64,000 nt of DNA from Naganishia liquefaciens (lineage: Eukaryota > Basidiomycota > Tremellomycetes > Filobasidiales > Filobasidiaceae): contig BLZA01000023.1 of assembly GCA_013423385.1 (NCBI GenBank), forward strand, positions 933,782-997,781, in the 5' to 3' direction. How positions within the stretch are numbered: the stretch's first letter is position 1; every line of letters begins with the position of its first letter. A model generated the notes under the pieces. It ran no database searches and had not been told where the DNA came from. It saw only the letters and a program-made list of their open reading frames with translations. Shown here in pieces: positions 27,030 to 55,686 of the stretch. The position numbers and the translations under genes are program-made.

Positions 27030-30000
27030 TCAATACCGATACCCTCCCTGAGGATTCTGACCCATATAGCCCGTCTGCTGCATGTTCATGTATCCGGGCT
27101 GCTGTTGCTGCTGCCCCGGCATACCGGTCATGTTCATGCCCATGCCCATGCCCATGCCCATACCGGTGTTCATGCTGTTCATGCCCATTCCAGTGTTCAT
27201 GTTGTTCATGTATCCCATGGGCATGCCAGTCTGCTGAGGCATCATACCACCGTTGTATCCCGTCGAGAGGGGCATGAGAGCGCCGGTAGGTTGCGGCCGT
27301 AGAGCGTCGTATTTGTCTGGTTGAGAATACCGTCAATACTCATATTCCGAAATAAATTGCCTAATACCTACCAGATGATTGAGGTGCTTCGTGTTCCGAC
27401 TTAACGATTTCTCCTCGCTTCATATTGGCAAAGATGCTTTGAGGAGCAAATCTGTCGTTGCTTTGAGCATTCTTGTTGGAAGTCTGTTGTGTCGGCACAG
27501 AAGCCAGTGCGTTGAACATCGGGTTGGGCTGTTGCTGCATGCCGTTGAAGCCTGTCATGTCTGTGCAAGCATATTTGTAAGCATGATGCTTCACGCCACG
27601 TGAATGAATACTCACTGGGCTGCATGCCCTGGAATCCACCCTGTTGCTGTCCGTACTGGTTGAATCCGGTCTGTTGCGACATCATACCCATTCCCGCGGT
27701 GTTACCATGAGTCATGTTCATGTTGTACCCGGTCGCCTGCGGCATCATCTGGTGCGATTGCTGGTTAGGGCTGGGCGCGGGCGAGTTGCGAGTGGGGACA
27801 AAGCCGTTGAACCCAGTCTGCGTGGGGACCAACGGGTTGAGCAATCCTTGGTTGGCAGGAATGGGAGCGAGGGGCGCCCCAGTTGCAGGAGACTGTGGCT
27901 GTTGTTGGCCATATGCCCCAGTTTGTTGGGCTGTCATCAGCTGTCCCATCGGCATGTTCGACGGGCCCATGCCCAAGCCAGAGTTGACGCCCATTCCCGT
28001 TTGTTGAGGCTGAACGATGCGATTGCTGGGGATCTGGGAGAGGAAGTCGGCCTCGCTGGATTGCTGAGCATTTTGATTGGTATTCAGATGTAGGTTGTTG
28101 ATTTGATTTGCGAGAGTCGAGCTCGTCTGTTGTGGCTGTGGAGCGCTGATGACAGGAGCCGGCGCGGGCGGAGCAGGTGGAGCCGGAGGCGTCGGCGTCG
28201 CAGGCTTGGTAGAGTTCGGTCGGGGCACCCAGGCGTCATCGTCGAATCCGCTGATGAGCGGGGCCGCCTTGACAGGTTCCGCAACAGCAACAGGAGCCGG
28301 AGGAGGGGACGGCGACAACAAGGGCGGTGAGCCCGCCCCATTGGTTTCTTTCAGTTTATCCGCGGCAGCACCGATGCTGGAGGGATCGATGGACGAAGCG
28401 GTTCCCTTGCGTTCCCGAGGCTCGGGCCTTCCTCGACGTGTATTGTTTGCGAGCTTGCCATCTGATTGCGTGAAGAGATTCGCCGGGACGCCTCGTCCAC
28501 TGTTCTCGGCCTCCTGCAATTTCCGTGCCAGTTCTTCGTCCTCCTTGATCTGGGCTTTCTGCTCAGGTGTTAAATCCCTAAACCTGTTGCTGATCGCTTT
28601 TCGGACCCGAATAACGTCTCCTTCGCGTAATCCTAGAGAGCGCAGAGTAGAAGGTTCCAAGTCTGGCAAAATAGATTCATCAATGCGATCACGTTCAAAG
28701 TTGGCTGCATAACGGGTGCAATCGTCCATGTCACACCCGGCCGATAGGAAGAACTCAAACCAGTCGAATTGGGCTTTTCGAGGGCGTTGTTGCACGACCG
28801 ATGCGACAGGGTTAGGCGCCGGAGACGAACGTGCCCTGGTTTCCGCCGAAGGCCCATTGCCTGTGCTCTGGGTTTTCGACATTCTCGCCAGAGGCAAATC
28901 ATCCTCCGGGTCCATGGGAGGCGGCGATCGTGAAGCCGGTGCGGCCCTCGATGCTTGGTTCTGTCGGCGCTCTCTTTTAATGTAGGCAATGTCGTCTGGC
29001 GACATCTTCTCAACAGGGACCTCAATAATCACGCCATTGATTTTGTGCAATCGGATTTTGCCATTACCCAGACCGAGGAATTCTGCCTCGACACGGAATT
29101 GACCGGTCTTGTCATGCCAGACTCTGGTTCGAGCGGGATTGGGACCTACATAGGATTCGATCAGCATCAGCACTTTGTCGCTAAGGCGTGAACTCACGGT
29201 TCCTGGTTGTATCCTTTGGACGATCGGGCTGACTTCGGCCTTTAGGATTCGGAAGAGCCCGCGCCGCCGCGACATCGCTTTCCGATGGTCGCTGTCTCAA
29301 CTTTGGAGGTTCAGGAGCACCACCTGATCGACCTGCTTCGCGCCTGTGAACAATATTCAGCTACGGCCTTATGCAACGCATTTTGACACTGACCTCCTTG
29401 CAGACTCCTGCTCTTGTCTCCGCTTTTCCTCCTCTGCTCTCCTCTTCGCCCGCTTCTCTCGCTTGATTCTCTCTTCCTCGGCCCGTCGTGCTTCCTCCTG
29501 CACCTGTCTCAGAATTTCTTCTTCCTTGAGTTTCGCAGTTCGGGCTGCATCGGCCCTTTCAGCCTCTAACGCTCGCGCCCTGTCTTGCTCTCGTGCAGTC
29601 TGCGCCATGCGCTCATCTTCTTCGTCATAGTTATCCTCAGGATCGGATTCGACGGGTCGGCCCATCGCAGCACTTTGAGCGGCATCGATAGCGTTCAACT
29701 CGACGTATTGCGCTGGAACGACGCCTTGCTTTCCTGTCGAGTTCTTGACAGTCCACCAGTCGTCATTGGACTTGTCGATGACAGTCAGGATTTCTCCTTC
29801 TGACACAGGCAATTCGTCGTCCCCCTGAGCGTCAAAATCATACAAGGCCGTAGCTGTCAACTGGGCAGGCGACGCCTTGGGAACCGACTGAGCACTCGAA
29901 GTGCGCGAATGGTGTAGGGGGGGAGGTGGCAATGCAGCAGAGGAAGGTTCCGCCCAACGGACAGCCTTTGCGCTAGCTGTCGGCGACGTGACGTTCTGTT

Positions 30001-31057
30001 CGTCTCCGTCGTCTGACGAGACGGTGACTCCGCGGTTCAGGCCGCCGACTTCTCGCTCGGTGCTGATAAAGCTCGATCCACTGCCCGAGATGGCCTTTGA
30101 GGATTCCAATTTTGCAAGGATGGCTTCGGTGATATCTTTTGAAGAGGTATGGAATTCCAAAGGGTCAGACGTTGTCGTGAAAGACAAGAGCAGAGTCTTC
30201 GACGATGGCGAAGAATACTTTGTGAGTTGGTGCATCGGGAACTGCTGGACGGGTGTCTAGAGAGAAAAGCCAAATAGTCGGAGAAAGATCCGTTTACTGT
30301 CAGAAATCATCATACCTTGTCCGACTCCGAGGCAAAAAACACCGCTCCGTTTCCGACGCCGAGCGTTCCTTTCTTCTTCTTCTTTTTGTCCATCAGCTGG
30401 ATACTCCAGGTTTCGATGGAGTCTTTCCTTCCCGATGCGGATCCTGCAGGAGCGCCCGGTGCGGAATAAGTCGTAGAGGGTTCCACCTCGTGGACTTCAT
30501 CTTCGGTGACCATACCCTCGGCGGTTTCTCCGCTAACGCCGACTTCCGCAGCATCTGGCGTGGGTGGCTCGATATAGTTTGTAGGCACAAATCCTAGGCG
30601 TCCTCCTTCATGGGGTGTTGCACCTTGAATGGCAACTAGCGTCCATTCGTCGGCTTCATCGTAGACTATCAAGGCGGCATCTTCGGTGAACGAGATTTCG
30701 TCTTCGGCTGTCGCTTCGTAATCATAAAGAGCTTTAGAATACCCGATAGGCGCAGCCTGAAGCTGAAATCAGTAGAGATCCGGAGGGCCACAAGGTGTAC
30801 CTACCTCTTCGACATAGTTGCTGGGGACGAGTCCGACCTTGTCTACTTCTGCTCCATCCTCTCCAGGTTTGATCTTCGCCTTCCACCATCTGCAACATTT
30901 CAGTCACAGCCGCAAAGCGGTCAGAAAGGCTGAGCACTCACTGCTCGTCTTCCTTTTCCAAGATGTACAAGACCTGATCTTCTTTGAACGTCAATTCATC
31001 TTGCGGGTCCTGTGCTTCATAGTCGTAGAGCGCCTTGGCGACCGCAACATACGCCAT
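27030..31057 (-). CDS. sla1: Actin cytoskeleton-regulatory / endocytic adaptor Sla1
   Basis: Eight exons: 30942-31057, 30805-30889, 30316-30756, 29394-30256, 29198-29343, 27616-29145, 27372-27560, 27030-27316; 1218 residues. It couples cargo and clathrin to actin assembly at cortical endocytic sites. Domains in order: SH3-1 (about 1-67, AKALYDYEAQD ... GLVPSNYVEE), SH3-2 (about 72-130, KALYDYEATAEDEI ... GFVPTNYIEPP), SH3-3 (about 350-408, TALYDFDAQGDDELPV ... GVVPAQYVEL), a Glu/Arg coiled coil (about 425-505), SHD1 (about 555-615, RTRVWHDKTGQFRVEAEFLG) and SHD2, the SAM-like domain (about 676-735, FDWFEFFLSAGCDMDDC). A Gln/Met/Pro-rich tail with many QQTG repeats follows. In yeast such LxxQxTG repeats are targets of Ark1/Prk1 kinases (family knowledge). 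The tail ends in MGMGMGMG low complexity. Confidence 0.95.
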
Positions 31058-37217: not shown

Positions 37218-40200
37218 ATGTGTGAGTCCTTGAATAACGCTGAGAGATCTGGCAGTCCTGACTGCTTTGAAGTGTTTTCCGCCTCAGCTTCTCTCCCATC
37301 CAGTAATTCTACTGCCACAGTACAGTCCAACAAATTTCCGATGAGTATTCCCGAACTCCTCAGCTTGAGCCCAGGTTTTGGCTCCCGTCAGCCTCAAAGG
37401 AGCATTCCGGTCCCCATCAATCGTCAACTAGCCTCTCTGCACAGCGGAAGTGGTCAAGCGGGAGCAAGTCCACAGAGCTCTTCCTTCAACTGGGCGCCTC
37501 TGAGTGCGCGGAGCGCTCTCAAACCTCCTGTCAGCGCCATGGGAATCGGATTCGGCGAGCAGGAAAGAACAAAACATGTCAGAATTTCCGTCGCGCCGGA
37601 TTTCATGCCTTCGCTATCCGCTCGATACGTTCCTCCCGCACGCCGAAGCCTCGTTGACGGAGGAAAAGGAATCAGGCAGCGCCGGGCTTCTCTCAATGAT
37701 TCGAATCCTCGGCGAGCACTTGCGGAACTTGGAGGGCAACCCAAAGCCAAAAACACCCCCGCCACGGTGAAATTCCCTGAATCCACGGTCATTGAAAGTG
37801 GAAAGATACCGAGTTGGGAGGAGCGACGACGCATTCGACTAGCAAGGGGTACTGCAATCGCGACTGTCCGAACGACCATCGTGTCGCCTTCAACCCCTAA
37901 CAGTGTCGCGATTTCGCCTGGCCTGACTAGGAGCTTGGTTGTTATAGCGCGGGAAGACCGGAAAGAGAATTCCACTGATGGCTTGGGTCCACATTCTGAG
38001 AATATCGAAGCGCCCCTGACTAGTCAGTCTCTTGCTGGCGAGACCCCTGTAGCGCGGACCGATAGTAAGTCCTCTGCAACTTTCCGCTTTGCGGTTGCTA
38101 AACGCTCGCCACTGCGCGACTTGCATTGTTTTCTGGTTTCCAAAGTCATTCTCTGCAAATTTTACCATACTCCCGGCTTGAAATGTACCGCCAGCCCCTG
38201 CCGTTTCGTGCACGAGATAAATTGCGCCCCTCTCCTGTCGTCAGTGACAAGCAGTCTCAGCGGCAAGACAAGCGGTGATGGCGGCAAGCAGGTGCCAGAA
38301 ATTGAAGAATCGACTCCATCCAGGGTTGAGATCGTAGAGGTTTTCAGAATGAGCGGGGGCGGCCGGGGGGCAGGTTCTGAATGGGCAAAAGCCAAATTCC
38401 GGAGTAGGTGTCGATCGAGTGGCTCGTGCCGCTGGAAGTCGGATGTGTAGACTGATGAAGACTGCAATGACAGCCGTGTCTTGCCGAGATTTCGCTGCCG
38501 GATATTGCTCTTACGGTAACTTCTGCTCCTTCATTCAGTAAGCCTCCAAGCAAGCCGCGTTGATGGAGGAGACTTGAACTGTAAAATCCCTTCAGTGAAG
38601 CCCCTCAAGAGGGATCAAAGGGAGCAGGTGAGGACGGTGCGACAAAGGAAATGCAAAAGCCCAAGGAGACCGTGGCCAGCACAGACATCCTAGAGGACGG
38701 TGCGACAAAGGAAATGCAAAAGCCCAAGGAGACCGTGGCCAGCACAGACATCCTAGCTGCTTCGACGACCATTGAAGCGGAGGAGACTCTGATCGACTCC
38801 GACCCTTCAACTCTTGTGAAACTGCAGGTCAACGGGTCTGACGGGGAATCTTCGTCTCTCGAAAGCGTTGAAACGGCTGAAACGCCGTCGTCACAAGCTC
38901 ATCTCCCAAGGAAATCTGAATCGCTGGGAGCAAAAAGCGACACCGAATTTGAAACACGAACTCCTTCTTTATTGCAAGGATCATCGGCGGTAACTATCAA
39001 GGCGCTAGATACCAACCCTGCCATTGTCGTACAGGATCTCCCTTTGACCGCGCCTGGTGTTTCAGGTTCGCCATCCACGATCCTCAAACCAGCTAAATTC
39101 AGAAGCGGTAACATCGTCGTTCCCGACTACCGCTGGACGAAAGAGCAAGGGATGGTTCCGTCACCGACTTCGCCATCTCTCGACTTCTCAAATATGCGCG
39201 CCAAATCCAAGATGCTGCAGGGATCAGGAATCGCGAATTCTCTGCTAGCCCCTGCATCACTTGCCTCTGGAGTCGACCGTGTCTTCGCGCGCACAATCAA
39301 TCTACCAGTACAATATGCCAATGCACCACCTCTTCAAACCTGGCTGAAGCCTAAGGGAACACTCACCAATCTTTGCCCAGAAAAAGGCATGACTCAAAGC
39401 AGTGCTACAGCTTCTGAAGCTCCAGAGGAATCTCCGTTTCTGCCTATCACAGCCTACTCGTTTTCGACCGATTCGAGCAGTCCTCCAGCGACACCCTCAG
39501 ATCAGCGCCAAGAAGTCATAACTCCCGAGAGTGAAGAAGTTGCACTGCCCGCAGTTTGCATGTATTCCGACTCTGCCTCTCATAACCCGTATGATCGACT
39601 GGATGGCAACACGTGGACGTATCAGACGACCGGCGATCAATACCTCTCGGACTCAACCCCGGTCTACAGGGACGCAATGGCACCCGCGCCGCTTGAAGCT
39701 TGGATGGTTGATGCCTACCTTCTTCAGATGAGCCAGCAACCCGAAAACGAGATGTGGTTCAATCCATTCTCTTCGGGCTACGGAATACCTAAATCCAAAT
39801 TCATGCTCGCTAAGCAATTAGCGAAGCAGGTACGAGCCGGCGCCTTGCCTCCACAACTGCCTCAGTCCAGAACCAATTATCGTAGTGCGTATCCGTGAAC
39901 GAGATGGCAATCTGCCCCTGTCCGTTTTCAAAGAATACACCTGACACATTGTCCTCCCTTATATCAGCGAAACCATGCAGATTTTATCTAGAGGGGAATT
40001 GTCCCCATGGTGAGGGCTGCTCTTAGTAAGTTCATCATCTGAGTGGATGTATAGACAGTATAACTGACTGGATGCCTCTTGTCTGCGAATGACTATAAGC
40101 TCTCACGATCAGAAGGTGATCGCGAAAGCCAAACGTCGCACCGACTCGATCGCGCACAAACTTCGAAGTGGGTGGTCTTGCGCTGAAAGCATCTAGTCAC

Positions 40201-40766
40201 ATATTCTGACCGGTCATTTTTCAGCTCAACCTTGCAAGGTGAGAGCAAGCTTGATAATTCCCACATCCCTGTTGATCTCGATTTTCTCCATTCCGGCTCA
40301 GTTCTACAACTCGGCAGAAGGCTGTCACTGGGGGGAAGAATGTCCGTTCCTGCATCAATACATTCTCCCTATCGGAGCCCCGTTAATGCCAAAACCGAGG
40401 CCTTGGAGGAGTGAGTATAGCTGACTCCAGCGGACAATGTCGAGCGTCACTCACACCTCGCCGGGCTACTTCTAGCTAAACCGTGTCGTGTGAGTCTCAA
40501 GCCGACAAACCCAAGACCGTCGCTTGCTGAATAACATTCTTCTGTGCTCACAGCATTATGCTGAAGGTAGATGTCTGGCCGGAGAGCAGTGTCACTTCGC
40601 CCACATTGGAGTAGTCCCTTCCCTGAAGAAGGTACAGAGAGGTACTTTTCAGAGCTCAAACGAGTCCGAAGACGGGCATGAACAGGCTGCCAAGAGGGAG
40701 AGAACCCGTAAAACAAAGAAAAAGTCTTCTCAGGTCCATGATCTTCAGATCATCACCAGTGCTTAA
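37218..40766 (+). CDS. Protein with five CCCH zinc fingers
   Basis: Ten exons: 37218-38064, 38146-38403, 38474-38537, 38596-39884, 39968-40025, 40100-40167, 40225-40238, 40302-40410, 40476-40489, 40554-40766; 977 residues with this start. Fingers: 1 at 286-305 (CKFYHTPGLKC, spacing 9-4-3), 2 at 372-390 (CRDFAAGYC, 7-5-3), 3 at 823-841 (CRFYLEGNC, 7-5-3), 4 at 865-884 (CKFYNSAEGC, 8-5-3), 5 at 906-924 (CRHYAEGRC, 7-5-3). CCCH fingers usually bind RNA, so a role in mRNA fate is likely. The pattern recalls fungal Cps3/Lee1-type proteins, but I cannot assign an orthologue. Long Ser/Pro-rich linkers separate fingers 1-2 from 3-5, and the C-terminus is basic (KRERTRKTKKK). A motif with RYVPPARR and the segment IPSWEERRRIRLARG may be further functional sites. 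The start is uncertain (see the upstream region). Confidence 0.85.
38630..38755 (+). repeat. Exact 63-bp tandem duplication in the CCCH gene
   Basis: Two identical 63-bp units, 38630-38692 and 38693-38755, each encoding 21 residues (EDGATKEMQKP ... STDIL). Zero mismatches by eye. The length is a multiple of three, so the frame is kept. Confidence 0.95.
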
Positions 40767-40991: not shown

Positions 40992-43432
40992 CTAAACATG
41001 CTCCGGTTGAAAGGACATTGGCGGCAGCGGTCGACATCCCAAAGCGATCTCCCAAGCACTCCTGAATATGGTAGAAGGTGCATCAGCGATTACTGATGGA
41101 TAAAAATTGTTCGTCTCAGGGCAAGCTTACATTATCGACAGCAAGGTAGCTTCTCCGTGCTTCCTTCCAATGAAGAAAGCCCCAATCGGGACGCCGTCAC
41201 TCAACAAGCCCAGAGGGACTGTGCCTTTTGAACACAGAAGACGCATTACTATCGAATCACAGGAGGGCAGCGATCGGACCGCACCTATGGGGTATCCAAC
41301 CATGTTGGCCAAAGAATGGTGTCCCTCACGAATCATGAAGAGAGCATCTAGGTTGTACTGATCAAAGACCCAGTCAAGCCCGTTTTTGCCAGCGGTGAGA
41401 AACATGTCTCGTTTCGCGTCCAGATATTCGGGAGAGTCAATTGTAGTGGCCTGCAACGTTCTCTCGAGAACCTCCTGTCCTCGGTGACCAGCAGGCAGCT
41501 CAACATCCTGTTTAGATAAGGACCCGCGTAAGCGCACTTCTTTCAAGCCCTCGTTATGGGCGACTTGCCGCATATTTCTCATTAAAGCTGTTGAAGGCCA
41601 AGTAAATCGAAGACGAACGATGATCCAAAGTCAGCTGACGCGCTCCGTGGCTTAGAGGCTACGCACGCAATGATATCCTCTACTGATCGACATCCCCCTT
41701 CGCCCCCTAAAGCTTGAAGATATCTCCCTAGATATTCCCTGCAATCGGCAGCCACGACGAGACTCCTAGAAGTATCTGCGCATTTCCAGAGAGATCCATC
41801 GACTGCCGAAGGAATGTCTGCGGGATCCATTACGGTGCCACCAAGACTCTTCATCACGGCTAATGCCCTCTCAAAGGCTTCGGAGACCTCTGGAGCGAGG
41901 TCGTTTCGGCCAGGTCGCTTCCAGGGATCGATGTCGTGCCAATTCTAAAGACGATTAGATTTTTTTAGAGTGTGAGTGCCCTTTTGACATCTAGAGTGAT
42001 GGGTGTTTACATACCCTCCGAGGCACTCCTATTCTGAAAGGCGCGAAATCTGATACCTCAATGCTGCCCACATACTGTTTTGAGAGAATACTGAGCACAA
42101 TTGCATAGCCGCCTCGAGAACACCCAATGATGACACTCACATTGCCAGCGGGACGGTTCCGCTCGACCGAGAGGGCTATGTACATCCGAAATTCAGATTT
42201 GAGGTCTTGCACATTCGCACTCAACTCACTAATCGGATCCTCGGAATCCGGACCTTGCATGACGTCCATCAATAATGCCAGATCCCATACTGTCTTGGCC
42301 ATTGGTCCTGCCGTGTCGAAAGAAGGAGCGAATGGAACGATACCTGTTCGCGAGAGCATTCCCACGGTCGGCTTTAGGCCATATATAGCGGACTGAAGGC
42401 AAGGCAGGGTGATCGAACCATCTACGGTAGGAAAAAGAAGAGTTTAGTCTGCAGATCTCTCACTTTGCAATCTGTCTGGTCTCCTGACCTGTTTCGGTTC
42501 CGACAGAAGCAGGGCAGAACCCTGCCGCAACGGCGACACCATTCCCGGCAGATGAGGTTCCCGGAGATGCATGTGCTGCGTAAACATTGATTGTTTGGCC
42601 TCCTACCGCGCTCCAACCTGGGCCCGCATGTCGCGACTTGTAATCTGCTAACTCGGACATATTCGCTTTGCCAATGACTGTAGAGGTAGATAAGGTGTTC
42701 AATGTGGAATCGCGATGATGGACAGTCGCGGGGGACCTACTTATAGCGCCTGCTTCTCTGAGCTTTCGGACGACGTAAGCATCCTTCTTCACAGGCATAT
42801 CCACTGTGATGCGACGGTCGTTATCATCTTCTTTCTGGAAGAACTGCAATCAACCCTCCTCAAAACTTACTAAGAGCAAAAGAACCAGCGGTTGTCGGCA
42901 TTCCTAATCGTTCTTCAGTCCCAATGTTATCCCTATCGGTAAATCAATCGGCTGCAATGTCCTATCATCAAGAGAAATGTACTCACTTAACGAGGATGGG
43001 AATACCATGCAATGGTCCTCTACACCTACCAAGGCCAAGTTCTATGTCCCTTTGACGCGCAAGGCGGTAAAGTTGGTCTCTGGGAGCCAGATGTACAATA
43101 GCTCGAAGTGTGTCATTATGGCAATCGATCTGACGCAGGTAGGTGGCAAGGATCGTGACGCTTGTCAACTCGCCTTCAGATAGCGCTTGCGAGAGCTCTT
43201 TGATTCCCGCGGTATACACATTGAATGAAGCAGAAGGTGTCTTTGTGAACTCTGCATGTTTCCGGTAGTGATGAGTGTAAAACGCTGGCCGATGTCTTGG
43301 CGTGGTGAAACGAGTGCGCGAATGCGTTTGGGATCTGCCTTTTCCTGCCCTATGAGATGCTCTAGTGTTTGAGCACGAACGATTCGCGCGATGCGCTTTT
43401 GTCGAGGGCATAGCTTTGCCATTGTTGGCCAT
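40992..43432 (-). CDS. Amidase-signature family hydrolase
   Basis: Nine exons: 42987-43432, 42871-42932, 42741-42803, 42489-42677, 42015-42421, 41667-41944, 41569-41587, 41131-41507, 40992-41061; 636 residues with the start at 43432. It hydrolyses C-N bonds of amides; the substrate is unknown. The Ser-cisSer-Lys triad is visible: Lys in HGIPILVKDNIGT, cis-Ser in GTSSAGNGVAVAAG, and the nucleophile Ser in VGTETDGSITLP. KANMSELADYKS and ALLMDVMQGPD are also typical. The family core begins at ASFNVYTAGIKELSQ. The preceding 75 residues are basic, low-complexity and may be mis-modelled, so the true start could differ. One exon is 19 nt and the intron after it is GC-AG. It converges on the CCCH gene with 225 bp between stops. 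Confidence 0.88.
41508..41568 (-). other. GC-AG intron in the amidase gene
   Basis: 61-bp intron, donor GCAAGT, acceptor AAACAG. The 19-nt exon before it (FNEKYA) joins DVELPAGHRGQE only with the GC donor; the GT at 41563-41564 shifts the frame. Confidence 0.8.
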
Positions 43433-43689
43433 TTCCCCTCGCCAGCATGATACTTCAGAATGATTGCTGTCTAGAAACGATGAGCAACACCAATGTGGTC
43501 GCTCAAGCGTTTCTTCTTCATCGGTGCTTGTCCCGGAAGTAGCAGAAAGATTTTGCTCTCGGTGCATCGGTATATCGAAGGCGCAATCTTGAGTCCTTCC
43601 TCGATGGGGAAAAGAGGGAATCCCTTCGAAGACATTGAGGATCAGCTCGATTCACCCTGAGTACACAGCGAACTTCGCTCAAAGAACCG

Positions 43690-44349
43690 TCAGCGCGAGA
43701 AAATGGACTTACTGTCATTCAAGACATCATCTTCATCATCGTCTGGCATCCCGTCAGTCGATATTCCGGAGGATGAGCCGGAATGCGAACACAAGGGCGA
43801 GAGCGCCACAGGATCGGCAGAAGAGGCTGCTAAGTGCTGGCCATAGTTTGTGGATGACCGGAATGAAGACCGTCCCCGCTGAGAAAGGAAATCAATCTTC
43901 TCCGTCGGCATCAAGATTCTTGGATAAGCTGTTTTGTTAGACCCGAATCCGAGCGTGTCCTCTTCATCGCTGGATGTGTTGACATCTTCCACTATGACGA
44001 CGGTGGCTGCCGATTCCGAATGGGTCATGCTTTTTTGCGAGGCCAGAGCTCTCTTCGACCCGCTTTGATCCGCTGCAAACCGGTTTCCGTCGAGGTATTC
44101 CGCATTCTGCTCCTTTGCCCTGTCTGGGGAACGCCGGCCTCGAAGAGGGATGTAAGCCTGACATGACCTTGCCCTGCGTTGGTAGGGGGACTGGAATGTC
44201 AAATGATGTGAGCGAGATAATCCTAGATCTTCCTCGAAAGCCGTAGGAGCGAGTTCCGGAAGAGCGAGTTCTTCGTCAACACAGTTGCAAAGTGGAAATA
44301 GAAGCTGGGAATTGTGCGAATTATGGAAGCGGCCTGAGATTGAGGCCAT
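43690..44349 (-). CDS. Unknown acidic, Ser-rich protein
   Basis: A single open frame of 219 codons from the ATG at 44349. I do not recognise it. It is Ser-rich with acidic patches (VVIVEDVNTSSDEED near the middle, DGMPDDDEDDVLND near the end) and basic ones (SPYQRRARSCQAY, RGRRSPDRAKEQ). A GTAAGT donor sits inside the last codons, and splicing there with a CTCAG acceptor would end the protein four codons earlier in effect. Composition and the lack of stops suggest coding, but no domain confirms it. Alternatively it is part of a longer amidase transcript. Confidence 0.4.
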   Translation of the reverse strand: MASISGRFHNSHNSQLLFPLCNCVDEELALPELAPTAFEEDLGLSRSHHLTFQSPYQRRARSCQAYIPLRGRRSPDRAKEQNAEYLDGNRFAADQSGSKRALASQKSMTHSESAATVVIVEDVNTSSDEEDTLGFGSNKTAYPRILMPTEKIDFLSQRGRSSFRSSTNYGQHLAASSADPVALSPLCSHSGSSSGISTDGMPDDDEDDVLNDSKSIFSR

Positions 44350-48515: not shown

Positions 48516-49121
48516 CTTCTCCTCTTTAAGCAGAGACGTGAGATTTCTCAGCTATGGCGAGTATCTAAGAGTGCTTGAGGTATGCCTGAACGATAGGTGT
48601 ATTTGACGCCATGCTCAAGTATGCCGAGAGGAAGGCTGGTACAATGAGCTACGCAACTACTCATCCTGTTCTCGATCACTCTGTTTCGGGTACGCGGTCA
48701 TTCAGGGCAGCCTGTTACGTAATGTACATGTACCATATATATCTCCAGTAGCCGGAATCTCTGCCGCTGCCGAAGTCAGTTTCATAACATGCAGGACCGT
48801 GAATGATACGGCTCGTTCGCAGGGCAATATGACCGGGCATGATATTCAATGAGTTTCAAGAGGAAGGACATCATGTATAGCATCCTTCAGCTTGCCAAAA
48901 GTATCGCTGAAGTCGATTACGTGTACTATCAGCTTCAGCAAAAATCGAAGTTGTTAAAGGGGCGAGGCTTGCCGTACGAGACAGCATGTGAATCGTGTAT
49001 ACCTGAATCTGCCTTCGTGCATGTATGTCTGCGCCTGTATTATTGCCTCTCGAGATTCGAGGAGGCTGGCGGGTTGCGTCCCACCAAATGGTGTTGTGTG
49101 TGGCCACCTTCTTTGCCCGTG
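48516..49121. other. Intergenic: metallopeptidase promoter, 3' end of the YTH gene
   Basis: About 600 bp. No supported gene. Confidence 0.4.
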
Positions 49122-52100
49122 TCAGCGGCTTAGCCTGTCCCACTCAGCGAGAAGGCTGGCCCCGATTACTAAACTTGACGAATCAGCAAACGTCAATTTG
49201 GGAAAAGGCGAAAGTCACAGACCTGGTTCCAGCTCGGTGCCATCCCTGCTGACTTTGACTTCCTTGTCTTGGTTCCATGGGTTTCGCAGGTGTTTGATCG
49301 AGGAGAAAGGCAGTTCACCCACTCGAATCCACTCGACTTCGAAATCATGTAACTCGGCCGCCGTTGTAGCTACACTCTCTCCTATTACTGTCACGCCGAT
49401 CTTGCCGTTGGAGCCATTGGTATCGCCTCTGTCGGTCGCGACAACCGTTGACTGGCGCTGAGCCTCAACAGCGGCCGGTGCATGAGCCTCATCACTGGAG
49501 ATCATGTCTTTTCCAGAAACGTCTCCAGCGGATTTTGTATCGTTCCTTGTTGAGCCGCTTTGGGCTTTCAGAGCCGCGTCTTGATCTAATTCAAAACTGT
49601 CCGCATTGACCATCGCTTTAGCTGCAATCTCTTGCTTCAACGCCTCTTCTGCACGTATGCGTGCAAGGGCTTTGGCGTCGAAAGTCATCGCCCGCAGAGG
49701 GAAATCGCTGGACCCAGAAATTCGTTTGTGGTCCGGGTGGGGAGCAGTTTGATTCCACCTGAAGATGTCGGTAGGACTGGTCAATTCGTCGCCTGGCGTC
49801 ATCTCTCCAGGCGATGACATTGCAAGCGGGACATTCGTGGAATCTTCTGAGGATAAGCGGAAAGATCGAGGGACGGGTGGAGCGTCTTCATCGCCCTCCT
49901 CTTGGATGTCAGCTCCCCGTGGCGACAGAAGACCTGCGGTTCTGCTGTTGCTACCAGATATCGGCTTTGACACCCCCGAGCAACTGCCGTTAGAGAATGG
50001 CGAATCTTGACCTTGAGCGGACTGTGAGGTATGGGGGCGAGCCACTGATGCAATACCGCTGCGCATGATCGCGTATCCTGTAAATGATCCTTGCTTGTTC
50101 GCGCCGAAGATCAGGTAGACTTCCGGCGATGTCCGGAAAGCCTGGTCTGCACATTGGGCATACAGAAGGGCAGATCAGTCGCGCTGGATGAAGAAAAGGT
50201 TTTCGAACTTACCCAAGATAGCCTCATTATGTGGCTGAGTACGCCATGACCCCACCTTGATACTCCTATCCAGTTCGTCCTGAATGAGGTTCAAGTCAGC
50301 TCAGAGCGATACCAGTTCCTGCAAGGGTTTACTTTAGTAGAACTTTTGAGAATAAAGTATCTTTTCGGAAAGTTGCGGACAAGGAATGAGGAGGATGTCG
50401 ATGCCAGGCTATGGTCTACGTCAGTGGACTGCCCAGGTTGCTGCTGTTGACCCTGCCAGGCTGCAAATGCAGCCGGGCTGATAAGGTCATTGCCATTGAT
50501 TACGCTTTCGCGTCTCCTGCCTTCGCCCTCCGGCGGCTCTTCCAAAGCCGCAGGGCTTAGAGGCAATAACTGGTCTGAAACCGGCGGAACTACTGGAGAA
50601 ACCAGACTGATTGCCAAGTTTTGTGCCACATCTTCAGTCTTGTTTTTCGCACGAAGATTTCGGATGTACTTGACGTGTAGGCCAGCCCCTCGCTGTCCCC
50701 CGACGCCTGATTTCAAATCATCATCCGCCTTGCGAATACGGCACAAGAAAGGCTGACATCTCGGGTCCCATGGTCGTAGGTGTTTGCCGTTAAAGTAAGC
50801 GACGGCCGTCTCGAGATCTCTCTCGTTTTTGAAATTGACGAATGCGCAGTTTGATCTAGAAATCAGGAAGATAGATGCCACTCCTTGCCAATCCGCAGAA
50901 GCCTCGAATTGAGGCTCTGTTTGCCAGTCCAAAGGACGATTGAAATATTTCCACATTTCTTCGTGTGTCGCATTGGCAGGCCTAAGCGTTACAATTAAGG
51001 TGTGCTTTCAGTAAGGCTCCCTCCCCTCTGTTGGAGCGCATTTACTCACACGTTGCCTACCCACATCACCCAGTCACTCCGATTGGCGGGAGGAGCGGGG
51101 TGATAGGCTTTGCGCTCTAGCGCCCGTCCAGGCTTAGTCGCATCCGGATCGCCGGCCATTGATGCAGATACCGTCTCGCCCGCAGGATATACCTCGGTCA
51201 CCGCACTAGTGCCTTGTTTCTCGGACGGGATCTCAGCGTTGTCATGTTGAGCGGACTGGGATGGTGGTTTGTCAAGGTTTGCCCGTCCGCCCAGGTCTTC
51301 CCCGTTCAGCCAGCGACCATGGCCGTTGCCCACGCTGAGGCCTTGCGTCGAGTGACTGTTCCGATTATCAGACCAGTATTGCTGCGAGGCATAGTCCGTC
51401 CAACCGTTCCCGTTTACTTGCCCCCTGCCTCTGCCTCTACCTCTGCTCCTGTTTCTTCCTCTTCCGCGGGGCATCTGTGTAATGAAGCGCTCATCATGAA
51501 ATGCTCCACCCAAAGGCTGACTAGGATAAGGCATGCTGTTGGGTGGTAGTGCTATCCAGCCAGGAGGAGCTGATGGCGAAAAGGCCGACCCTGACGTTGC
51601 GTTATAGTACTGATAGCTCGGTTGATACGGATAAGCCCCACTGTAATGCTGCATTCCGGGAAATAGTCGAGGATCCATTGCCTGTTGCATGGACATGAAC
51701 GCCAAATTGGTATTTGGTACCGGTTGATATGTTGACGGATGTCTGCCATTGACATTGCGGCCATGATTGCCGAGGTTGCGGAAAATGTTTATGCCTTCGT
51801 CGTTACCTGTGTGTCGGTATTGTGACATTGGACTATATGGGGATTGACTCATGTCGTACGAGTCTCTGGGATCATCCCCGGGCAGAGCCCACGATCCATT
51901 ATGAGCAGGCTGCGTCGCCTCTGTTCCTGAGTCGCGAAGTGGGCTGGTGGGCGACTGTGCATTGTCATTTCCATCAAGCGCTTGCCGAGGGTCTTGTGGA
52001 TGAATCTGCAGAGTCGTGTACAAATTGTAGGGCAAGCATTCGTACATATTCGGCGGCGTGTTTGATGATGCCGTTGTACGCGATTGTGGTCTGTTCTCCG

Positions 52101-52503
52101 GAGGACCTGCAAAGTTTGGCCAGATTGCGGGTGACTCCATCGTAGGATACACCATGGGAGTCAGTGACGGATTCGCAGACGGCCGATCACTTCCTGCCGG
52201 CTGCGGTAACAATGACTCGGGCACAGAAATTCCGGGCAATGGTCTCGCTTGGCCATTAAGCCCTGAGCCGGAAGGTGTGGGGCTAGTGGGGACGTCCCGG
52301 TTGGTGAATGCGCGGGTCATCTCGGAAGAACCGGGCTGAAGACCCGATCTGGCGGCTGATACGGGAGAGTGGCTGTGATGACGCTGAGAAGCGTCGTTAT
52401 CCACTTGTTCCACTCCATCAGTCGACTGGATTCCGGAAGCCTGAGCGTCGCCCTCTGAGGCCCTGCGTCCGGTTTGCAGGTCGGCTTCTGTGTAATGAAT
52501 CAT
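49122..52503 (-). CDS. RRM + YTH domain RNA-binding protein (putative m6A reader)
   Basis: Five exons: 51050-52503, 50333-50981, 50213-50279, 49223-50146, 49122-49168; 1046 residues. The first about 470 residues are disordered (Ser/Pro/Gln/Asn) with an [16 protein letters not shown] box at about 340-360. An RRM follows at about 478-575 (WVMWVGNVPANATHEEMWKY; NCAFVNFKNERDLETAVAYF). The YTH domain starts at about 690 (KRYFILKSST, IKVGSWRTQPHNE, DQAFRTSPEVYLIFGANK, SFTGYAIM). It is then interrupted by about 240 low-complexity residues and resumes at about 990 (FEVEWIRVGELPF, KHLRNPW, VSRDGTELEP). YTH domains bind m6A in RNA through an aromatic cage; the Trp in GSW and the one in VEW match cage or core positions. 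It probably controls mRNA stability or translation (inference). The last two exons complete the fold (GASLLAEWD). Confidence 0.92.
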
Positions 52504-54552: not shown

Positions 54553-55686
54553 ATGGGTTCAACTAAGGGAAAGCCGACCGACCAGAAGCTGCACGACAAG
54601 ATCACGGAGGAGATCAAGCAAGAAACCAACAAAGATGGTGAGTTTTTGGCGTAAGCCAGAAGGGGGACACCTCGTCTCAGCGGGATACAAGGATGATGTC
54701 GGTACGGTGTCGACATACATTACATGCTGCGCTGAAATAATGCTCGTTGGCTTCGTTACACGACTCACGGGTTTCTTCATCGAGACATTTAAGGGTATAA
54801 CGTGTTTGCTAACATCGTTTGGGCCTCCCCTTCAGGCAGTGGTGCTGGACAGATGGCCGCATGGAAGGCGAGTAAAATAGCCAAGGAGTATGAAGCACAG
54901 GGAGGGTGAGTGCAGTGACCGGCCTGCAGGGATGAAACATCGCAAGAAGAATGTCTAATGGGTGTTTGCATATCAGCGGGTACGAGAACGAAAGTGGCAG
55001 CAAGAACGAGCCGAAAAAGGGAGCACCGCAACACAAGTCTGCCGACAAGAAAGCTAGCGAGGAAGAGGCAAAAGCCGAGCAAGATGATGACGATGACGAG
55101 CAGGATGACGGCGAGAACGATGACAACGGGAACTCTGAAGCCGAAGAGAAGAAGACTGCTGGAAGCAAGCGCAAGAGGGTAAGTCATGGTAGCACTCCCT
55201 TCACCAGGAACAGGGCTAACGAATGATATCGGACATTTCCAGACTGCCACGGAGCCTAAGGCTTCAGCAAAGAAGAATGACAAGCCTGCTCCAACCAAGA
55301 AGTAAGTCTCGCGAAACAATGAATTAGGCCCTCGTGGCTTTTGTATCTTTGTGCCTGAGCATCGACAACTGCTCTTTTATTAGAACCAAGACCGAGGATG
55401 AGGAAGCTGAGGCAGACGATAACTCGGATGAGGACGCAGATGAACAGGGAGACGAATCCACGGGAGAGCAAGAGGTAGTACGTTGACTGGCTCGCCAAGC
55501 CGAAAGGCCACCGTGTTGACGTTACACTTGTCACCTCAGACTGAACAGCCAGAAGATGCTGAGGAGGGCGATGATGCTGAAGAGGGCGATGATGCTGAAG
55601 AGGGCGATGATGCTGAAGAAGGGGATGACGCCGAGTACGATCCCGATGCACAGCAGGACGAAGTTGCTGTCGAAGAAGACAAGTAA
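54553..55686 (+). CDS. Acidic protein with a short GQxxAxKAxxxAKEYE domain (DUF5872-like)
   Basis: Six exons: 54553-54637, 54836-54905, 54977-55178, 55243-55301, 55384-55474, 55540-55686; 217 residues. The N-terminal about 60 residues carry a compact motif (KLHDKITEEIKQE, then GSGAGQMAAWKASKIAKEYE, then QGGGYENE). I associate this with a small family of unknown function shared with bacteria and large viruses, where the segment reads KGGKPGQWSARKAQL. The rest is alternating Lys-rich and Asp/Glu-rich sequence (KKASEEEAKAEQDDDDDEQD, AGSKRKR, a TKTEDEEAEADD run) ending in an 18-bp repeat tract. The charge pattern resembles histone-chaperone or chromatin proteins (inference). Intron 1 (198 bp) is by far the longest here. 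Exact function unknown. Confidence 0.8.
55555..55626 (+). repeat. 18-bp tandem repeat encoding DAEEGD units
   Basis: Four near-identical 18-bp units in the last exon of the acidic protein gene, each coding Asp-Ala-Glu-Glu-Gly-Asp. The first differs at one base and the last at two. A fifth, diverged unit follows. All in frame. Confidence 0.9.

Follow-up and report, generated by a model that had tools for sequence, protein, structure and literature searches.

CCCH zinc fingers, as a family, bind single-stranded RNA. Proteins of the tristetraprolin (TTP/ZFP36) type carry two tandem C-x8-C-x5-C-x3-H fingers, each of which follows an (R/K)YKTEL lead-in. Here, we analyzed a stretch of 64,000 nucleotides (nt) from the basidiomycete Naganishia liquefaciens (GenBank assembly GCA_013423385.1, contig BLZA01000023.1, positions 933,782 to 997,781 of the forward strand; hereafter the window), which contains a predicted gene for a protein with five CCCH fingers. 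Every finger of this protein is preceded by an intron of the same phase at the same position. The best explanation for this arrangement, to which we assign a probability of roughly 0.6, is that a finger was copied inside the gene and carried its phase-1 intron along.

A recent review regards exon shuffling as restricted to Metazoa, and class 1-1 modules are its classic unit in animals (PMC8001218). The finger modules described here are likewise bounded by phase-1 introns and comprise multiples of three nt. They differ from class 1-1 shuffling in being fungal and apparently intracellular, in having their copies inside one gene instead of between genes, and in the position of the junction, which falls in a Thr or Ile codon (A|CN, A|TC) and not in a glycine codon. 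Muscleblind (PMC3315501) is also a CCCH gene, with intron positions conserved from insects to vertebrates; there, however, the fingers come in tandem pairs, of which the first is interrupted by one intron and the second is encoded by a single exon, so that the arrangement is not one of one intron per finger. More generally, exon ends that line up with domain ends are found widely among eukaryotes, including some fungi (PMC6547436). Very short exons have precedents in fungi as well: P450 genes of the basidiomycete Phanerochaete chrysosporium often contain microexons (PMC1184071), and in Trichoderma Xlr2, the inclusion of a microexon determines whether a zinc-binding domain forms (PMC11121469). 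The microexons of the CCCH gene are similarly flanked by short introns, but unlike those of P450 genes and Xlr2, two exons of 14 nt occupy the same place in neighboring copies of one domain. The phenomenon is already known, and the gene is a clean new instance of it, a modest fungal case and not a new kind. It provides a compact, checkable case of small-domain multiplication through intron-bounded modules outside animals. A search of the literature on intron positions in fungal CCCH genes returned nothing directly relevant.

An Intron of One Phase and Position Precedes Each of the Five Fingers

Splicing of ten exons on the forward strand (37218 to 40766; Table 1) yields an open coding sequence of 2934 nt for a protein of 977 amino acids. 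The five fingers, with first cysteines C286, C372, C823, C865, and C906, follow a 2+3 layout in which fingers 1 and 2 stand apart and fingers 3 to 5 form a C-terminal array. All nine introns start with GT and end with AG, with lengths between 57 and 83 nt. The start codon is uncertain (ATG at 37218 or 37539; the gene finder described below picks 37539).

In coding-sequence coordinates, introns 1, 2, 4, 6, and 8 are in phase 1 and lie exactly 8 nt ahead of the codon for the first cysteine (position -8) in 5/5 fingers. The codons that they split (283, 369, 820, 862, and 903) specify the residue three positions before each first cysteine. Introns 7 and 9 are in phase 0 and both lie at +6, in fingers 4 and 5, respectively, which leaves exons 7 and 9 with 14 nt each; these twin microexons are identical at 8/14 bases. 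The original prediction, made from the letters of the window and a list of open reading frames, had proposed both the phase-1 intron three residues before every first cysteine and the second, phase-0 intron that leaves 14-nt exons, and the spliced model bears out both. Its consensus for the microexons needs a correction in the last codon, which should read mRn instead of mGn (exon 7 ends in AAG and exon 9 in CGT). Fingers 2 and 3 also contain a second intron, which is in phase 2 and lies at +56 and +50; these positions match neither each other nor those of fingers 4 and 5.

When nine introns were placed at random on the coding sequence in 200,000 runs, no more than three fingers had a common offset. 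Randomization of the introns within 131 nt, with the number per finger kept, gave a maximum of four fingers (8 runs). The analytic probability of an offset common to all five fingers is about 5e-8 for 131-nt intervals and rises to about 2e-5 if introns are restricted to 30 nt around the finger starts, that is, under a strong preference for domain starts. These figures are post hoc, as the pattern was noticed first, and the margin is large.

The segments between the shared introns are regular too. The four complete modules measure 258, 1353, 126, and 123 nt, and all of them are multiples of three with 1-1 symmetry. The frame is kept when exon 2, exons 3 and 4, exons 5 and 6, or exons 7 and 8 are left out, and skipping of either 14-nt microexon leads to a premature stop. 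At the junctions themselves, the context A|C is found at 4/5 finger sites versus 6/109 predicted introns in the other genes of the window. All five finger junctions have an A at the last exonic base (-1), and the context AG|G is absent.

Copying of a Finger with Its Intron Is the Favored Explanation

An intron of the same phase is thus found at a homologous position in each copy (5/5 at -8, phase 1), and the likeness of the finger sequences themselves is graded: it is clear in fingers 3 to 5, weaker in finger 2, and weak in finger 1. Fingers 3 to 5 have a common lead-in, RT(K/Q)PC(R/K)xY, and in pairwise comparison, 12 to 13 of 21 to 22 aligned residues are shared. The Thr three residues ahead of the first cysteine in fingers 2 to 5 is, by alignment, the counterpart of the Thr in the tristetraprolin lead-in YKTELC. 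We favor duplication because the finger introns agree exactly in position and phase, fingers 3 to 5 have one lead-in in common, fingers 4 and 5 both contain the +6 intron, and the modules are 1-1 symmetric. The idea of a repeatedly duplicated finger-plus-intron module, which the original prediction had extended to all fingers, is strong for fingers 3 to 5 and fairly supported for finger 2, but it is weakest for finger 1, where it stays unproven.

In this scheme, a phase-1 intron would have stood 8 nt ahead of the first-cysteine codon of the ancestral finger, and the finger would have been copied within the gene together with this 5' intron. With a phase-1 intron at either end, each copy would comprise a multiple of three bases and could be gained or lost without a frame shift. 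An extra phase-0 intron at +6 would have been present in the finger from which fingers 4 and 5 descend. Since this intron is common to both, either these two fingers were the last to separate, or finger 3 may have lost its +6 intron. The phase-2 introns of fingers 2 and 3 are probably separate gains.

Several observations weigh against duplication. Residual similarity between introns was not beyond chance: of the 36 pairs, only introns 2 and 4 (P=0.013) and introns 2 and 5 (P=0.007) fell below P=0.05, and these values are not significant over that number. Because fungal introns fail to align even in sister species (PMC3584928), this dissimilarity neither supports nor refutes duplication. Finger 1 is weakly CCCH by profile, its spacing differs, and the reading frame does not require its intron. 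Further, the A|C context is mostly dictated by the ACN codon for Thr and is not fully independent evidence.

The features of fingers 1 and 2 also fit a narrower history, in which only the array of fingers 3 to 5 copied a finger with its intron, and fingers 1 and 2 are of other origin, with introns that coincide by chance or through a preference for domain starts. We regard this as unlikely, yet worth serious consideration. Fingers 1 and 2 are without the TKPC lead-in, and 86 and 451 codons, respectively, separate their first cysteines from that of the following finger. The spacing of finger 1 is C-x9-C-x4-C, and its profile scores are weak; in addition, exon ends across eukaryotes match domain ends more often than by chance (PMC6547436). 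Against this history stands the nucleotide-exact position of their introns, as the probability that fingers 1 and 2 both match the -8 site set by fingers 3 to 5 is about 1e-4 (131-nt intervals) to 2e-3 (30-nt intervals).

Alternatively, the introns could have been gained independently at a favored site immediately before the first cysteine. Parallel intron gain is known in basidiomycetes, but the insertion sites described there carry little sequence information, with a slight preference for G|G (PMC3584928). Such a history would need five coincidences in one phase and a further one for the second intron of fingers 4 and 5. We consider parallel gain improbable here because A|C is rare among the introns of the other genes and AG|G, the context that independent insertions would be expected to show, is absent from the finger junctions.

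Splice Signals Support the Gene Model

Since the splice sites were picked by eye, the gene model could in principle be an artifact of choosing sites that complete fingers. Gene models were also derived with a simple home-made gene finder, run on each strand with splice, branch-point, and codon models. Its start values came from generic settings and from long open reading frames outside the CCCH gene, and they were re-estimated from the remaining genes in the window with the introns and coding sequence of the CCCH gene excluded. At two of the four intron-penalty settings, the gene finder returned 9/9 donors, 8/9 acceptors, and both microexons, and thereby recovered 8/9 introns without any knowledge of fingers. 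Intron 7 was dropped at a third setting, and at the strictest setting, the model ended after intron 3 and the C terminus was lost.

For each finger, we also enumerated every frame-valid, stop-free GT-AG intron leading into it and scored these candidates with splice models trained without the CCCH gene. The -8 intron scored highest for 5/5 fingers. Where it has competitors, its lead is 1.6 to 5 nats; finger 5 has no other frame-valid candidate. Within intron 9, a Cys codon (TGC at 40545, CSQHYAEGRC) is in frame with exon 10, and the unspliced sequence encodes a complete C-x8-C-x5-C-x3-H finger. Finger 5 built on this intronic cysteine was rejected, as the best single-intron model scores 8.7 nats below the microexon model.

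The gene finder and the model disagree at two places, the start of the coding sequence (37539) and the acceptor of intron 4, both of which would fit an artifact. Instead of the site at 39967, the gene finder prefers an in-frame acceptor at 39991, a TAG 24 nt downstream, the use of which would delete TKPCRFYL in frame and destroy finger 3. Two further introns are not forced by frame: the lengths of intron 1 (81 nt) and intron 7 (63 nt) are divisible by three and neither contains an in-frame stop, and the reading frame stays open upon their retention. Finger 1 would survive retention of intron 1, whereas retaining intron 7 would destroy finger 4; by signals alone, the two readings of intron 7 are near-equal (3.65 vs. 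3.13). Given the independent recovery of most introns, the first rank of the -8 intron at every finger, and the poor scores of single-intron alternatives for finger 5, an artifact of site selection appears very improbable.

The same features raise the question of whether regulated splicing keeps the introns in place, with skipping of microexons or modules, or intron retention, toggling fingers. The modules are frame-neutral, loss of one 14-nt microexon brings a premature stop, retention of intron 1 or 7 would keep the frame, and finger 3 has the competing acceptor at 39991; moreover, the Xlr2 microexon is reported to toggle a zinc-cluster domain in a fungus (PMC11121469). However, such potential for retention and frameshift is ordinary in fungal introns, and regulation would account for the maintenance of the introns but not for their common position, which makes it a quite improbable explanation of the pattern. 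A related but unlikely reading is that the microexons carrying the first cysteine, together with the introns that can be retained in frame, serve as splice-controlled switches of single fingers in a fungal RNA-binding regulator built by class 1-1 exon duplication.

The gene also carries a warning for annotation, as two of the five fingers hinge on exons of 14 nt. It had been suggested that annotators would probably miss fingers 3 to 5. This risk is real but not certain, because the gene finder found the microexons at permissive settings and lost intron 7 or the C terminus at others.

The Protein Belongs to the CCCH Family and Differs from Its Known Types

The protein matches the CCCH families PF00642 (zf-CCCH), PF18345, PF18044, and PF14608 in Pfam. 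Over the whole protein, zf-CCCH scores 61.4 bits against a cut-off of 20.5, in four stretches. Taken singly, fingers 2, 3, and 5 pass the curated score, finger 4 lies slightly under it, and finger 1 is weak. Motifs of the form C-x(7-9)-C-x(4-5)-C-x3-H above the profile thresholds are thus present, as in CCCH RNA-binding proteins, and family membership points to a putative mRNA-binding regulator as the probable nature of the protein.

The nearest solved sequences are tristetraprolin (1m9o), a C3H1 protein (9y10), and CPSF4/CPSF30, all with short finger matches only. The protein differs from these in the 2+3 layout of its five fingers and in its length, most of which has no domain assignment, and a full-length relative was not found. 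The array departs from the TTP/ZFP36 type in its lead-in, RT(K/Q)PC, in its first spacings (x7, x8, and x7), in having three fingers, and in its linker lengths. It also departs from the CPSF30/Yth1 type, which has five tightly packed fingers, as gaps here reach about 430 residues; CPSF4 and YTH1 match individual fingers only. Relatives sought in viral and prokaryote genome collections were not found.

Organization of the Gene and Its Surroundings

The exons and introns of the CCCH gene are listed in Table 1.

Table 1. Exons and introns of the CCCH gene, in positions of the window
Feature	Position	Strand	Support
Exon 1; N-terminal region without recognized domain	37218..38064	+	Open frame
Intron 1, phase 1, -8 from finger 1; 81 nt, AAG acceptor	38065..38145	+	Recovered by gene finder
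Exon 2; finger 1 CKFYHTPGLKCTASPCRFVH, C-x9-C-x4-C-x3-H; 258-nt 1-1 module	38146..38403	+	Weak Pfam CCCH matches
Intron 2, phase 1, -8 from finger 2	38404..38473	+	Gene finder, splice scoring
Exon 3; finger 2 CRDFAAGYCSYGNFCSFIH as far as two bases of the His codon	38474..38537	+	Pfam zf-CCCH E=2e-8
Intron 3, phase 2, +56, within the His codon of finger 2	38538..38595	+	Gene finder
Exon 4; long linker	38596..39884	+	Splicing of the exons of the model
Intron 4, phase 1, -8 from finger 3	39885..39967	+	Splice scoring; gene finder agrees on donor
Exon 5; most of finger 3 CRFYLEGNCPHGEGCSYSH	39968..40025	+	Pfam zf-CCCH E=1.9e-7
Intron 5, phase 2, +50, in the codon two residues ahead of His in finger 3	40026..40099	+	Gene finder
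Exon 6; end of finger 3 and linker	40100..40167	+	Splicing of the exons of the model
Intron 6, phase 1, -8 from finger 4	40168..40224	+	Gene finder, splice scoring
Exon 7; 14-nt microexon CTCAACCTTGCAAG, A|CT CAA CCT TGC AAG = TQPCK	40225..40238	+	Gene finder
Intron 7, phase 0, +6 in finger 4; 63 nt	40239..40301	+	Gene finder
Exon 8; remainder of finger 4 FYNSAEGCHWGEECPFLH and linker	40302..40410	+	Pfam zf-CCCH_4 E=2e-4
Intron 8, phase 1, -8 from finger 5	40411..40475	+	Gene finder, splice scoring
Exon 9; 14-nt microexon CTAAACCGTGTCGT, A|CT AAA CCG TGT CGT = TKPCR	40476..40489	+	Gene finder
Intron 9, phase 0, +6 in finger 5; 3' end TGCTCACAG, in-frame CSQ	40490..40553	+	Gene finder
Exon 10; remainder of finger 5 HYAEGRCLAGEQCHFAH, basic C terminus, stop	40554..40766	+	Pfam zf-CCCH E=4e-7 (finger 5)

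Exon 4 holds a perfect tandem duplication of 63 nt (38630 to 38755), in which EDGATKEMQKPKETVASTDIL occurs twice with every base identical. It may be very recent or a matter of the assembly, and length polymorphism is conceivable.

Downstream of the CCCH gene and convergent with it, a gene with a weak amidase match is predicted on the reverse strand (40992 to 44028). The same strand carries a Sla1-like gene with SH3, SHD1, and SAM-like domains (27030 to 31057), a fungal-type neighbor, and a YTH-domain gene of the m6A-reader type with a YTH1-like RRM (49040 to 52503). The original prediction had placed the DNA in the Agaricomycetes, which agrees with introns that are short and dense and with neighbors such as the Sla1-like gene; N. 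liquefaciens itself belongs to the Tremellomycetes. An 18-nt tandem repeat of GATGCTGAAGAGGGCGAT in 4.1 copies is found at 55555 to 55628 and is probably an acidic coding repeat.
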